Shown piece by piece: positions 14,163 through 20,945 of a stretch of DNA of 38,248 nucleotides. Every line of letters begins with the position of its first letter. Position 1 is the stretch's first letter. The notes under the pieces were generated by a model that saw nothing but the letters and a program-made list of their open reading frames with translations, ran no database searches and was not told where the DNA came from. The stretch is from Planctomycetota bacterium (GTDB lineage Bacteria; Planctomycetota; B15-G4): contig JAJDER010000188.1 in NCBI GenBank assembly GCA_029259725.1, positions 1-38,248 on the forward strand, read 5' to 3'. The position numbers and the translations under genes are program-made.

Positions 14163-16487
14163 CTACCAGTCGAACATGTCCTCGACGTCCTCGGGGTGCC
14201 GCTGCCCTGTCGAGGCGGGCTCCTCCGGCTTCTCCTTGCGCGAACTGCTGCGCGACCGCGTCTTGCTCGCGGACTTGCCGTTGCCGGTGGACTTGGCGCC
14301 GCCACCGGACTTGCCGCGCCCACCGGACTTCGCGCCGCCTCCCGATCGACCGCCCTGCTTGCCCGAACGCCCGCGACGGCTGCGGCTGCCCCCGGACGAG
14401 GCGGCCTCGGCGTCGCCCGCGGTGCGGGGGGTCGCGCCCTCGGCGCCACGGGCGTCGCCGGCCGACTTGTCGGCGGACTTGTCGGCGCCCGACGAGCGGG
14501 ACCGACCGCGCCCGCCCCGGGAGCGCCCGCGGCGTCGTCGCGGCGTGCGCCCGTCAGGCTTGCCCTCGGTGTCCTTCGCGGCGCCAGTAGCCTCGGAGGT
14601 CTCGGCGGTGTTGGCCGAGTCGCCCTCCTCGCCGGCTTGCCCACGATGCTGGCTGTCGCGACCAGAGTTGGCGCGCGCCCATCCCTGGGCACGCTTGTCG
14701 TCGGAGGTCGACGTGGAGCCGCTCGCGGTCTCGGCGGAGTCGGCACTCGCTGCGGCCGAGGTGTCCTCGCCCTTCACCTTGCGGATCAGCTTGGCCACGA
14801 AGCCGCGCAGGCCGCGAGGGGGCTCCTCCGCGGGGGCAGGAGCCTTGCCGGAATCGCCGCGCGCCGGCTCGGCGGCACGGGCGGACGCCGCGGCCTCCGT
14901 GGTCGGTGGCGCCGAGCCGCTCTCGACTTCCCGTGGCTTGCGCGGCATCGGAGCGGGCGCCTCCGCGGAGCCCTCGCGTGGCTCCCTCGCCGCGGCGCTC
15001 GCCCCACCGCGGCCACCTCGACGGGCTCCGCCCCGGCGGCGGGAGCGGGAACGCTTGGGGCGCGGTTCGCCTTCGGAGCGGGCCTCGTCCTCGGGACCGG
15101 CCGACGAGGCGCGTTCCGCGTCGGCGGCGCTGTCCCCGTCGCGCGTGTCCCGTGTCTTGCGGTCGTCGTCCGGCCGCCGCTCGCCCCCGCGGCGGGAGCG
15201 CGCCCCGCGCCGACGACGCCGGCCCGTGCCGGGCGTTTCCTCGTCGCCGCGAGTCGCGGCTGCGGTCGTGTCGCGGCCTGCGAGGCCGAGTTCCACCTCG
15301 CGCTCCGCGAGGCGCTGGGCCCAGCGAGCATGCACCTCGGGATCGCCGCTCCCGGCGAGGCAGGTGAGGTACAGGAGCTGGATCGCGTCGCGGGTCGAGG
15401 CGCGGCCGAGGAACTCGCCCATGCGCAGCCGACGGCTGCGCCGACCGCGGGTCAGTCGCAGCTGCGTGACGAGCAGTTGCTTGCAGGTGGCCACGTCGCG
15501 GCGCGCGATGCTCATGCGCAGGGCCGCGGGCGCGATCAGGTCGCGGGCGAGGGCGGCGGCGTCGGCCGACTCGTCCGCCTCCACGGCGGCGTTCCATGGA
15601 GCGTGGTACAGCGCGGCGAGCAGGAAGCCGTTCTTCAGGCGCCGCTGTCCTGCATCGATCCGGTCCAGGGCGGCCCCGACTCGCGCGAGCTCGTCACGGT
15701 GGCTGTCCCAGTAGGGTGCGATTTCGGGGAGCAGGTGCTCGAGCAGTCCGTACTCGACGAGCATCGAGAGCGAACGCTCGGCACCGCCGCAGGCGAGCAG
15801 CTTGAAGATCTCCTCGAGCACGCGCGGCGGAGCGCTGCGGCCGATGAGTTCGGCCGAGTCGCGCATGGCCGTATCGAGTCCGTCCTCGAGGGTCAGGTGC
15901 GCGCGGGCCGTGAACTTGATGGCGCGCAGCATGCGCACCGGGTCCTCGGCAAGACGTACGCCGGGCTCGCCGATGGTGCGCAGCACGCGGTTCTCGACGT
16001 CCTTGACGCCGCCGACGTAGTCGATGACCTCGTCGGTGCGCACGTCGTACAGCAGGGCGTTGATGGTGAAGTCGCGCCGGATGACGTCCTGCTCGGCCGT
16101 GCCGAACTCGTTGTCCTGCACGATGAGGAGATCCTCGTCGTCCTCGTCGTCTGCGTCGCCGTCGCCCGTGGCGCCTTCGGCTTCAGGAGGGCGGCGGAAG
16201 GTCGAGACCTCGATGATCTTGTCACCGAAGTGCACGTGGGCCAGCTTGAATCGCCGGCCGATGACGCGGCAGTTGCGGAACAGGCGCCGCACCTGGCGTG
16301 GACGTGCCGCCGTGGACACGTCGAAGTCCTTGGGGATCATCCCCATCAGCAGGTCGCGGACGCAGCCGCCGACCAGGTACGACTCGAACCCGCCGTCGTT
16401 CAGGCGTTCCACCGTCTTGACGGCGTCGGGATCGAGACTGGCGGGAAAGATGAGAGTGTTGGGGTGACGAGTAGGCTCGTGGCTCAT
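14163..16487 (-). CDS. pcnB: Poly(A) polymerase with a long disordered basic tail
   Basis: A protein of 774 residues. Residues about 1-400 are a class II nucleotidyltransferase of the bacterial PAP I type: SYLVGGCVRDLLMG, the metal pair in KDFDVSTAARP, VSTFRRPPEA, then DNEFGTAEQDVIRRDFTINALLYD, which separates PAP I from CCA-adding enzymes. PAP I adds 3' poly(A) tails that mark RNA for decay. An acidic insert (GDADDEDDED) interrupts the core near residue 112. The last 370 residues, from about 405, are low complexity: RRRRRGARSRRGG, SRSRRRGGARRGGRGG, GGR/GGAKSGG runs, one helix-like island (RGLRGFVAKLIRKVKGE, about 556-572) and a final DVEDMFDW. E. coli PcnB is near 465 residues. Its start overlaps the BtpA-family gene by ATGA. 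Confidence 0.9.
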   Translation of the reverse strand: MSHEPTRHPNTLIFPASLDPDAVKTVERLNDGGFESYLVGGCVRDLLMGMIPKDFDVSTAARPRQVRRLFRNCRVIGRRFKLAHVHFGDKIIEVSTFRRPPEAEGATGDGDADDEDDEDLLIVQDNEFGTAEQDVIRRDFTINALLYDVRTDEVIDYVGGVKDVENRVLRTIGEPGVRLAEDPVRMLRAIKFTARAHLTLEDGLDTAMRDSAELIGRSAPPRVLEEIFKLLACGGAERSLSMLVEYGLLEHLLPEIAPYWDSHRDELARVGAALDRIDAGQRRLKNGFLLAALYHAPWNAAVEADESADAAALARDLIAPAALRMSIARRDVATCKQLLVTQLRLTRGRRSRRLRMGEFLGRASTRDAIQLLYLTCLAGSGDPEVHARWAQRLAEREVELGLAGRDTTAAATRGDEETPGTGRRRRRGARSRRGGERRPDDDRKTRDTRDGDSAADAERASSAGPEDEARSEGEPRPKRSRSRRRGGARRGGRGGASAAAREPREGSAEAPAPMPRKPREVESGSAPPTTEAAASARAAEPARGDSGKAPAPAEEPPRGLRGFVAKLIRKVKGEDTSAAASADSAETASGSTSTSDDKRAQGWARANSGRDSQHRGQAGEEGDSANTAETSEATGAAKDTEGKPDGRTPRRRRGRSRGGRGRSRSSGADKSADKSAGDARGAEGATPRTAGDAEAASSGGSRSRRGRSGKQGGRSGGGAKSGGRGKSGGGAKSTGNGKSASKTRSRSSSRKEKPEEPASTGQRHPEDVEDMFDW

Positions 16488-17275: not shown

Positions 17276-17440
17276 AGAGGTCGCGACGCGTGAGTTCGGG
17301 AGCGCGCCTGGAGTGGTGAGGGAGACCTCGCCCTGGGCGCATGCAGACGGATGAGCCGATGATACGGCCTGAAAGGTGGCCGAACCAGGATGGGCGCCCT
17401 GCTCGGGGTGCTTGTCTCGCCGGGACGCGGGCGAATCGGC

Positions 17441-17446
17441 TACCCT
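17441..17446 (+). promoter_or_regulatory. Candidate -10 box for the M16 pair and miaA operon
   Basis: TACCCT lies eight bases before the GTG at 17455, the same spacing as at 1713, 22401 and 30114. No -35 element is visible and no Shine-Dalgarno sequence precedes the GTG. This supports both the GTG as the start and a leaderless transcript. Confidence 0.4.
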
Positions 17447-17454
17447 CCGCGACC

Positions 17455-18735
17455 GTGAAGACCGACGTCGCCGACCCCTTCGTGCAGCTCCAGGCCAGCA
17501 ACGGGGTCGAGATCCACCTGCACAGCACGGACAAGTACAAGACCGTGCTGCTGCAGTGGAACGTGATCGCGACCCTCGACGAGGGGCTCTCGGCCCGCGC
17601 CCTGCTCGGTGACCTGCTGACCCGGGCGACCCGTCGCCAACCGGACCTGTCGGCCCTCAATGCCCGCTGCGACGAGCTCTACGCCACCGAGCTGTTGGGC
17701 CACGTGTCCGCGGCCGGGCCGTACCAGTTGTTGGGACTCGGGCTGGAGACGGTGGCGGACCGTCACGTCGGGGGGCGCCCGGTGCTCGACGAGGCCGCCG
17801 AACTGCTCCGCGAGGCGCTCCAGGACCCGCCGCTCGAGGCAGGCCTCTTCCGCGAGGACCACTTCGAGCAGGAGCGGGCGAACATGATCCGCGCCATCGA
17901 GGGCCTGGCCGATGACAAGGCCACCCATGCCTACCTGAAGCTCCTGGAGCTGCTCCACGGCGGAACACCCTTCGGGCGTCACTCGTGGGGCACGCTCGCG
18001 GGTGCCAGGGCGCTCGACCGCAAGGCCGTGACCGAGGCCTGGGCCGACGTGCGAGACCGGTTGCCCGTGCGTCTGTTCCTGGTCGGCGACGTGGACGAGT
18101 CCCGGGCCCTCGCCCTGGCCGAGCGTCTCGGTGGCGAAGGTCCCCGGGATCGACCGCCGGTCGTCGTCCCGCCGCCGCCGATCCTCGCTCGCGATCCGAC
18201 CCACGGCACCGAACGGCAGCCGCTCGCGCAGAGCAAACTCGCCATGGGGTTCCGCGTGGCGCCCGAGCTGTTGCCCGGTGCCGCGGCCCCGCTGTTCGGG
18301 ATGGCCTTCGGCGGCGGCTCTCACGCGCGACTGTTCAAGCGGGTGCGCGAGGCGGAGAGCCTGGCCTACGGCTGTGGCGCGAGCCTGCAGGTCGAGAGCG
18401 GCACGCTCGTGGTCCAGGCCGGCATCGACGCGCCCGTTGCCGCACGCGTGCAGGAGCTGGTGCTCGAAGAGCTGCGCCGACTCGCGGACGAAGGGCTCGA
18501 CGAGGAGGAACTCGCCCTCTCGCGGCGCGCCCAGATGCGACGTCTCGAGAACCTGCGCGACAGCCCCCGTGGCTGGTGCCGCTTCCGACATGCGGCGCTC
18601 CTCGCCGGCCGGCCGTACCGACTGGAGGAGTCGCTCGAGCGGGTGGCCAGCGTGACTCCCGATCAGATCGCCGAGGTCGCGAGCGCCGCGACCCTCGATG
18701 CCGTGTTCCTGCTGGAAGGCACGCAGACGTCATGA
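17455..18735 (+). CDS. M16 peptidase-like protein without zinc motif (YfmF type)
   Basis: A protein of 426 residues with the M16 (insulinase-like) fold but no HxxEH zinc site. The N-terminal strand is VQLQASNGVEIHLHSTDKYKTVLLQWNV. GLFREDHFEQERANMIRAIEGLADDKATHAY matches the second part of the domain. The C-terminal half has LAMGFRVAPELLPGAAAPLFGMAFGGGSHARLFKRVREAESLAYG, the typical substrate-cradle helix and SLAY motif. Inactive M16 members pair with an active partner; the next gene is that partner and overlaps by ATGA. The pair resembles Bacillus YfmF/YfmH, linked to modification of elongation factor P. The GTG start at 17455 is favoured over the ATG at 17341, which would add 38 residues without domain likeness. 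Confidence 0.83.
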   Translation: MKTDVADPFVQLQASNGVEIHLHSTDKYKTVLLQWNVIATLDEGLSARALLGDLLTRATRRQPDLSALNARCDELYATELLGHVSAAGPYQLLGLGLETVADRHVGGRPVLDEAAELLREALQDPPLEAGLFREDHFEQERANMIRAIEGLADDKATHAYLKLLELLHGGTPFGRHSWGTLAGARALDRKAVTEAWADVRDRLPVRLFLVGDVDESRALALAERLGGEGPRDRPPVVVPPPPILARDPTHGTERQPLAQSKLAMGFRVAPELLPGAAAPLFGMAFGGGSHARLFKRVREAESLAYGCGASLQVESGTLVVQAGIDAPVAARVQELVLEELRRLADEGLDEEELALSRRAQMRRLENLRDSPRGWCRFRHAALLAGRPYRLEESLERVASVTPDQIAEVASAATLDAVFLLEGTQTS

Positions 18736-20012
18736 AGTGGGAAACGCTGACCAACCCGCTCGACGAGCCGGTGCTGACGGGCCGCACGGCCACGGGTCTT
18801 CGCGTGATCATGAACCCGCGCCCTGACTGGGTCCGCACCTTCGCCGCGTTCGGCGTGAACTTCGGTTCGGTCGATCGGGTGGGGGGCACCGATGGGGAAC
18901 CGGTCCCCGAGGGCCTCGCCCACTTCCTCGAGCACAAGCTCTTCGAGGACGAGCGCGGCGACGTGTCCGATCGCTTCGCGGCCCTGGGCGCCAGCACCAA
19001 CGCGATGACGGGCTTCACCGGCACGACCTACATCTCCTCCACCATCGCCGACCCGGAGCCGTGCCTGGACCTGCTGCTCGATTTCGTGCAGGAACCCTGG
19101 TTCACCGACGAACTCGTCGAGAAGGAGCAGGGCATCATCGCGCAGGAGATCCGGATGTACGACGACGATCCGGATTGGCGGGTCTTCTTCGGACTGCTGG
19201 GCTGTCTCTACCGGAGCCATCCGGTGAAGGACAACATCGCCGGCAGCGTCGAGAGCATCGCCGAGATCGACGCAGCGACGTTGCGGCATTGCTACGACCT
19301 CTTCTACCACCCGAACAACCTGTGCCTCGTGGTCAGCGGGCCGATGGACCCCGAGCGCGTCGCCGCCCTGGTGGAACGCGACCAGGGCGACCGCCCGGAA
19401 GACAGCCGCGCGGCTCACCAGCGCGGAGTCAGTGACGAACCACGGGATGCGATCGAAGGCCGTTGTGCCCTGACCTTGCCCGTCTCGAGGCCACGCCTGC
19501 TGATGGGCATCAAGGAGACGGTGCTCGGAGGCTCGGCGCGCGAGCAGGCGCGCCGCAAGCTGGCCACGCGGGTCGCCCTGGACCTGCTGTTGGGGCGCAG
19601 CTCGCCGGGCTTCGAGAGCCTGTACCAGGAGGGGCTCGTGGATGAGAGTTTCGGCGTGTCCTACTCGTCCGAGGCGGGCTTCGGGTTCACCACGCTGGGC
19701 GGCGACACGGATGAGCCGGAACGCCTCGAGCAGCGCATCTGGGAGATCCTCGGGCGCTCGCGGACCGGGGGGCTCGATGTCTCCGCCTTCGAGCGCGTCC
19801 GCAACAAGCTGCTGGGCAGCATGCTGCGGAGTCTCGATTCACCGGAGTCGGTGGCGTACCAGCTGCTGAACGGGGCGTTCCGTGGCGAGGCGCCGTTCGA
19901 GGCGCTCGCCATCCTGGACGAGCTGACGCCGGACGACCTGCTGGCGAGGCTCGAGGAGCACGTGCGCGAGGAGGCCCGTGCCGTCGCCGTCGTGCATCCC
20001 ACGGGGGGCTGA
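18732..20012 (+). CDS. M16 zinc peptidase-like protein (YfmH type)
   Basis: A protein of 426 residues. The inverted zinc motif is His64-FLE67-His68 in GLAHFLEHKLFED, with the third ligand probably Glu139 in GIIAQEIRMYDDDP. The domain continues with HPVKDNIAGSVESIAEIDAATLRHCYDLFYHPNNLCLVVSGP. The second half carries FESLYQEGLVDESFGVSYSSEAGFGF. Together with the zinc-free partner just upstream it should form a closed peptidase chamber. The substrate is unknown; the YfmF/YfmH likeness hints at a role near translation factor modification. Its TGA stop at 20010-20012 is in the same frame as miaA, with no normal start codon between the TGA and the MiaA P-loop. Confidence 0.87.
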   Translation: MKWETLTNPLDEPVLTGRTATGLRVIMNPRPDWVRTFAAFGVNFGSVDRVGGTDGEPVPEGLAHFLEHKLFEDERGDVSDRFAALGASTNAMTGFTGTTYISSTIADPEPCLDLLLDFVQEPWFTDELVEKEQGIIAQEIRMYDDDPDWRVFFGLLGCLYRSHPVKDNIAGSVESIAEIDAATLRHCYDLFYHPNNLCLVVSGPMDPERVAALVERDQGDRPEDSRAAHQRGVSDEPRDAIEGRCALTLPVSRPRLLMGIKETVLGGSAREQARRKLATRVALDLLLGRSSPGFESLYQEGLVDESFGVSYSSEAGFGFTTLGGDTDEPERLEQRIWEILGRSRTGGLDVSAFERVRNKLLGSMLRSLDSPESVAYQLLNGAFRGEAPFEALAILDELTPDDLLARLEEHVREEARAVAVVHPTGG

Positions 20013-20033
20013 GTCACGGCGCGCGGCGACGGC

Positions 20034-20945
20034 ATCCAGCGTGTTCTGATCGGCGGGACCGCTTCGGGAAAGAAGGGTCTCGCAGCGCGGCTCCACGAGC
20101 GAGACGGTCTGTCGCTGCTGTCGATGGACTCGATGAAGGTCTACCGCGGCATGGACATCGGGACGGACAAGCCGTCGGCGGAGTTGCAGGCCCGGGCCCC
20201 CTTCGGTCTGTTGGACCTGGTCGGCCACGAGGAGGCCTTCAGCGCGGGGCGCTGGGTCGAGGCGGCCTGCGCCGCCGCGGAAACCAGCGAGGCGCCGGTG
20301 CTCTTCGCGGGGGGGACGCCGCTCTACCTGCGGCTCCTCGTGGAGGGTCTCTTCCCTGGGCCGCCCGGCGATCCCGAGCTGCGCGCCGAGCTGGAACGGC
20401 TCTGGGACGAGCAGGGCGAACGGGTCGTGCGCGCGCAACTCGCCAGCGTGGATCCCGCTCTCGAAGCACGTCTGATGCCGGGGGATCGCAAGCGGCTGGT
20501 GCGAGGGCTGGAGGTGCACCGCATCAGTGGGCGGGCGCTCTCCGACTGGCAACGCGAGGAGACACGACCGGCGCTCCCTGGACGCTTCGTGCTCGTCGCG
20601 CTGCGCTGGGAACGTGAGGCGCACGGACGTCGGATCGACGCGCGCATCGAGACCATGTTCGAGCGTGGGTTGCTCCGCGAGGTGGCCGCGCTTGCCGCTC
20701 GCGCACCCTTCGCCCCCGAGCCCGCGCGAGCCATCGGCTACGCCGAGACCCTCGACGTCCTGGCCGGGCGGTGCACCGAGCGGGACGCCATCGAGCGCAT
20801 GCGCACGCGCACGCGACAGCTGGTGAAGAAGCAGGGCACCTTCCTGCGCTCCTTCGCCGACCTGCGCTGGATCGACATCGCGGCCGACGAGGAGCTCGAG
20901 CAGGTCTTGCCCAGGGTCGAGCGGGCACTGGAGCTCCGCTCCTAG
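20034..20945 (+). CDS. miaA: tRNA dimethylallyltransferase with altered P-loop and unclear start
   Basis: MiaA adds a dimethylallyl group to A37 of tRNAs reading codons that begin with U. Most family blocks are present: SMDSMKVYRGMDIGTDKPSA, VLFAGGTPLYLRLLVEGLF, RLVRGLEVHRISGRALS and RTRQLVKKQGTFLRSF. The N-terminal P-loop, encoded at about 20049-20078, reads GGTASGKKG, whereas the family has GPTASGKT/S; the Walker threonine is lysine here. The first ATG in frame (20124) lies after the P-loop and would remove it. No ATG, GTG or TTG lies between the upstream TGA (20010) and the P-loop. I placed the start at an ATC (20034) as a guess; GTC 20013, CTG 20046 or stop readthrough are alternatives. 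The end overlaps the convergent lipoprotein gene by four bases. Confidence 0.8.
   Translation: MQRVLIGGTASGKKGLAARLHERDGLSLLSMDSMKVYRGMDIGTDKPSAELQARAPFGLLDLVGHEEAFSAGRWVEAACAAAETSEAPVLFAGGTPLYLRLLVEGLFPGPPGDPELRAELERLWDEQGERVVRAQLASVDPALEARLMPGDRKRLVRGLEVHRISGRALSDWQREETRPALPGRFVLVALRWEREAHGRRIDARIETMFERGLLREVAALAARAPFAPEPARAIGYAETLDVLAGRCTERDAIERMRTRTRQLVKKQGTFLRSFADLRWIDIAADEELEQVLPRVERALELRS

Follow-up and report, generated by a model that had tools for sequence, protein, structure and literature searches.

A tRNA-modification gene, miaA, with no canonical start codon directly after yfmH in a Planctomycetota genome, most probably started at ACG

Introduction

The textbook case of a non-canonical start is infC, which encodes IF3 and starts at ATT in E. 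coli and at ATC in Streptomyces (PMC5472188). Outside infC, the closest experimental precedent for a start of this kind is sigR of Streptomyces, which begins at GTC (GTT in two species) behind a very strong ribosome-binding site and is repressed by IF3; this start is conserved across 34 genomes, was tested by mutation, and is presented as the earliest GTC start on record (PMC5472188). A further point of comparison is provided by gene pairs that are translated by termination-reinitiation (PMC6728339).

Here we describe a miaA gene in a window of 38,248 nucleotides, the whole stretch of DNA that was analysed (positions 1 to 38,248 of contig JAJDER010000188.1, assembly GCA_029259725.1, Planctomycetota lineage B15-G4). 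As at infC and sigR, a near-cognate codon stands behind a strong Shine-Dalgarno (SD) sequence with no canonical start available. The locus resembles sigR in that a non-canonical start would be borne by an unusually strong ribosome-binding site, and differs from it in being a case from one genome, known from sequence alone, in which ACG is preferred over GTC. The likeness to infC extends to relatives of the window genome, whose infC genes apparently use ACG at the same spacing, whereas miaA is another gene, located within an operon directly after a stop codon and only putatively under IF3 control, and the window genome's own infC has no ACG. As in termination-reinitiation pairs, the candidate miaA start lies a few nucleotides from the yfmH stop with the SD inside yfmH, the preceding genes overlap as ATGA, and yfmH and miaA overlap by 4 nt in four relatives; however, the window miaA would start after the stop, without overlap, and not at a canonical codon.

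Results

The window carries yfmF, yfmH and miaA homologues in one apparent operon, in which the ATG of yfmH overlaps the yfmF stop. The features discussed below are as follows.

17341..18735, + strand: yfmF-like M16 peptidase homologue; open reading frame with PF05193, first gene of the operon, start codon as predicted for the open reading frame
18732..20012, + strand: yfmH; NF047421 at 438 bits (cut-off 250), stop codon TGA at 20010-20012
20003..20008, + strand: GGGGGG, Shine-Dalgarno-like, within the final yfmH codons; anti-SD pairing of -9.4 kcal/mol
20013..20015, + strand: GTC, rival start codon, adjoining the yfmH stop; 4 nt from the G-run, sigR precedent (PMC5472188)
20016..20018, + strand: ACG, most likely miaA start; 7 nt from the G-run, favoured by spacing, SD statistics and the infC layout of relatives
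20016..20945, + strand: miaA; 309 aa if started at ACG, stop codon TAG at 20943-20945
20052..20075, + strand: P-loop GGTASGKK, with the Walker-A Ser/Thr changed to Lys
20124..20126, + strand: first in-frame ATG, an unlikely start; removes the P-loop and has no SD

The best NCBIfam match of the yfmF-like protein is YfmF, at 250 bits and under the cut-off of 285. The yfmF-yfmH pair stands directly 5' of miaA in the window and in ten relatives (L032-L035, L061, L057, L066, L068, L077, and L086). NCBIfam names yfmF and yfmH for EF-P modification; the yfmF-yfmH-miaA arrangement brings two translation-related modification functions into one apparent operon. Elsewhere in the window, positions 14163-16487 on the minus strand encode a pcnB-like protein of the poly(A)-polymerase/CCA type; it has 774 aa and ends in a long, low-complexity C-terminal tail rich in Arg, Ser and Gly.

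The miaA product matches TIGR00174 (tRNA dimethylallyltransferase) over its full length, with 201.2 bits against an equivalog cut-off of 148.65 and profile positions 3-286 of 288 covered, and also matches PF01715 (E 8e-61). The gene has no internal stops, its product shares 58-64% identity with those of family relatives, comparison with each of the five gives dN < dS, and no second miaA copy was found in the 4.79 Mb draft genome. We conclude that miaA is intact and bears no sign of decay. Its departures from the described family are the non-canonical start codon and a P-loop ending in GKK instead of GK[ST], the latter common to the whole family of the window genome. Of 90 distinct MiaA homologues, mostly from Planctomycetota (loci L002-L109), 71 lack the Walker-A Ser/Thr and have Gly, Lys, Ala, Glu, His, Asp or Asn in its place, while the three solved MiaA sequences in the alignment have Thr. 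This distribution points to a lineage trait and gives no ground to exclude the window protein from MiaA, and we regard it as a predicted tRNA-modifying MiaA.

The first-pass annotation of the window had placed yfmH and miaA in one frame with a single TGA between them, and had found no ATG, GTG or TTG from that TGA to the P-loop; reading the junction codon by codon gave the same result on both points. The TGA is followed by the 13 codons GTC ACG GCG CGC GGC GAC GGC ATC CAG CGT GTT CTG ATC and then, from 20052, directly by the P-loop codons GGC GGG ACC GCT TCG GGA AAG AAG, such that the earliest canonical codon in frame is ATG 20124. Thirteen codons without a start are unremarkable by themselves in a GC-rich genome. 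What is unusual is to find such a stretch where an intact and conserved gene begins, given that the five family relatives all carry GTG there. Sequence errors relevant to the missing start are confined to about 20010-20051; an indel in the G6 run was ruled out as its cause, since the in-frame TGA comes after that run.

The G-run pairs with the canonical anti-SD, taken from the 16S tail GGATCACCTCCTTTCT as read in a family member (G003). Only 1.1% of random sites in the window genome pair as strongly, and a near-cognate codon of any kind with such an SD turns up in only 1.65% of random 13-codon stretches. Spacings of 7 nt between GGAGG and ATG are in excess both in the window genome (29, where the mean for the same phase is 13.4) and in relatives (25 vs 8.4), and no excess was observed at 4 nt in the window genome. 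The two codons that share the G-run differ in this respect: ACG 20016, followed by GCG, lies at the favoured ATG spacing, and GTC 20013 (-9.1 kcal/mol) lies at 4 nt, for which reason we favour ACG over GTC. No SD was found at ATC 20034, CTG 20046 or ATG 20124.

The related genomes were mostly metagenome assemblies of Planctomycetota, and five of them share the window's family. All five family relatives have the yfmF-yfmH-miaA order and a GTG that precedes the P-loop by 7-10 codons, and the same order was found at five further, more distant loci (37-43% identity). Among 74 readable miaA loci, the window alone has a complete miaA without a canonical start within 24 codons of the P-loop; one other locus lacks a start, and its contig ends there. 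The non-canonical start is therefore not conserved. Nor is the G-run kept, as yfmH ends differently in the relatives; otherwise the region is undamaged in the window and aligns to theirs codon by codon. In none of the ten relatives that have this gene order does yfmH end in the frame of miaA. Four of these (L034, L061, L077, and L086) have a 4-nt RTGA overlap between the two genes, an arrangement typical of termination-reinitiation. Chance would put two adjacent genes in one frame one time in three, which may be all that the shared frame in the window reflects.

We also compared open frames from about 0.95 Mb of the window genome with those from 1.2 Mb of two relatives, using 151 own-genome ORFs that had homologues in the relatives and a closed 5' end. 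Thirteen of the 151 were flagged, and only miaA had real homology upstream of any canonical start; inspection by eye put the other 12 down to shadow frames, noise extensions or the presence of a usable start. These approximately 150 ORFs held no further gene with a clear ACG start, and a genome-wide loss of canonical starts was rejected, as no second clear case appeared among them. The missing start of miaA is isolated in the sampled part of the genome. In another genome (G004), an ABC-type ATPase frame of locus L219, from about 17789 on the plus strand, has a conserved 5' end that lacks a canonical start and shows GAGG, 7 nt, ATC, possibly a further non-canonical start.

In five of the six family members, the sequence at the 5' end of infC is GGAGG, 7-8 nt, ACG GCA/GCT, and a strong SD followed by ACG also occurs in order-mates (L244, L245, L247, and L262) and in L265, from outside the order. 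The loci with this SD-ACG layout are L231, L233, L234, L235, L236, L244, L245, L247, L262, and L265, and a canonical start near the ACG is absent in most of these genomes. Judged from this layout, ACG is the apparent infC start in 5/6 family members and four order-mates; we found no published ACG start of infC in the literature searched. In other Planctomycetota, infC has ATT, ATA, ATC or canonical starts. The infC of the window genome (L232, G000:C18:38332) has instead of ACG the candidates TTG (GAGG, 7 nt) or a later ATC, whose SD is the stronger of the two. The miaA layout GGGGG, 7 nt, ACG GCG matches the infC layout of relatives, and this same SD-ACG spacing is a reason to favour ACG for miaA.

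Discussion

On balance, we consider it somewhat probable that miaA in the window is a gene of its own whose non-canonical start closely follows the yfmH stop, and that this start is ACG 20016; the weights that we give to this and to the following explanations are judgements and were not computed. The first-pass annotation had proposed a rare start at GTC, ATC or CTG. A rare start is indeed the best supported option, while its list of codons omitted the ACG that we now prefer. From the layout of the junction, the SD pairing and spacing statistics, the conservation of the gene and the infC layout of relatives, we infer that miaA is initiated at ACG, coupled to yfmH and controlled by IF3. The G-run in the final yfmH codons would act as the SD and position the initiator tRNA at the ACG that follows after 7 nt, and ribosomes ending yfmH, held by the G-run, would reinitiate at this codon a few nucleotides beyond the stop. 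Because ACG mismatches the initiator anticodon, initiation would be weak and IF3-sensitive, as at infC, and MiaA output would follow the IF3 level. Counting against ACG are the different layout at the window genome's own infC, the lack of a second clear ACG-start gene among the approximately 150 ORFs compared, the poor conservation of the G-run, and the rarity of switches to such start codons: in close-genome triplets with about 69,000 ancestral starts, six switches to CTG or ATT were found and none to ACG was reported (PMC5622118).

A sequence or assembly error, also among the options of the first-pass annotation, is the most serious competitor, which we hold to be unlikely while giving it appreciable weight. 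Position 20016 may really be ATG, or 20013 GTG, or one base may have been gained or lost within 20013-20051, any of which would give miaA a normal start. A single substitution suffices to produce a textbook arrangement of GGGGG, 7 nt, ATG GCG, and in a single draft genome of 195 contigs, a base change giving ACG for ATG would look identical to a genuine ACG. The GTG starts of the family relatives and the isolation of the case within the sampled genome also fit an error. On the other hand, consensus errors are rare per base, the surrounding region is undamaged, and relatives appear to use ACG at the same spacing in infC. Clearly less probable is another rare start of miaA, either at GTC 20013, the next candidate after ACG, or at ATC 20034. 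GTC can draw on the proven, IF3-repressed start of sigR and on nearly the same pairing with the G-run, and ATC aligns beside the GTG start of one relative (L005); against them stand the unfavoured 4-nt distance and the description of sigR as the first GTC start to be documented (PMC5472188) for the former, and the missing SD for ATC, as for CTG 20046.

Fusion and truncation, even taken together, seem very improbable to us. Readthrough of the TGA into an M16-MiaA fusion, as the first-pass annotation had suggested, has in its favour that one TGA alone separates two genes in one frame. Since the two frames differ wherever relatives have this gene order (10/10), such a fusion is not an old feature, and the junction has no significant RNA structure (z -0.65, with a similar value in a relative), so a special hairpin between yfmH and miaA was rejected as well; we give this explanation the least weight of all. 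Scarcely more credible is a decaying miaA started at ATG 20124, the earliest canonical codon. As had been pointed out in the first pass, such a start would remove the P-loop, and with it the first strand, both present in all relatives; none of the homologues begins at the equivalent position, and a gene otherwise intact, with dN < dS and in sole copy, does not look like one in decay.

If the ACG start of miaA is real, the very few starts known to be discriminated by IF3 are joined by one more codon and one more gene. Gene finders that assume ATG, GTG or TTG would truncate this MiaA to a form without its nucleotide-binding loop, or miss the gene. The recurrent SD-ACG layout at infC in the window's order is one that we did not find described in the literature searched. 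It is conceivable, and we propose it tentatively, that ACG constitutes a genuine IF3-gated class of starts in one Planctomycetota order, used at infC across the order and with miaA drawn in. In that case, the window species would tie tRNA A37 modification to the level of IF3.
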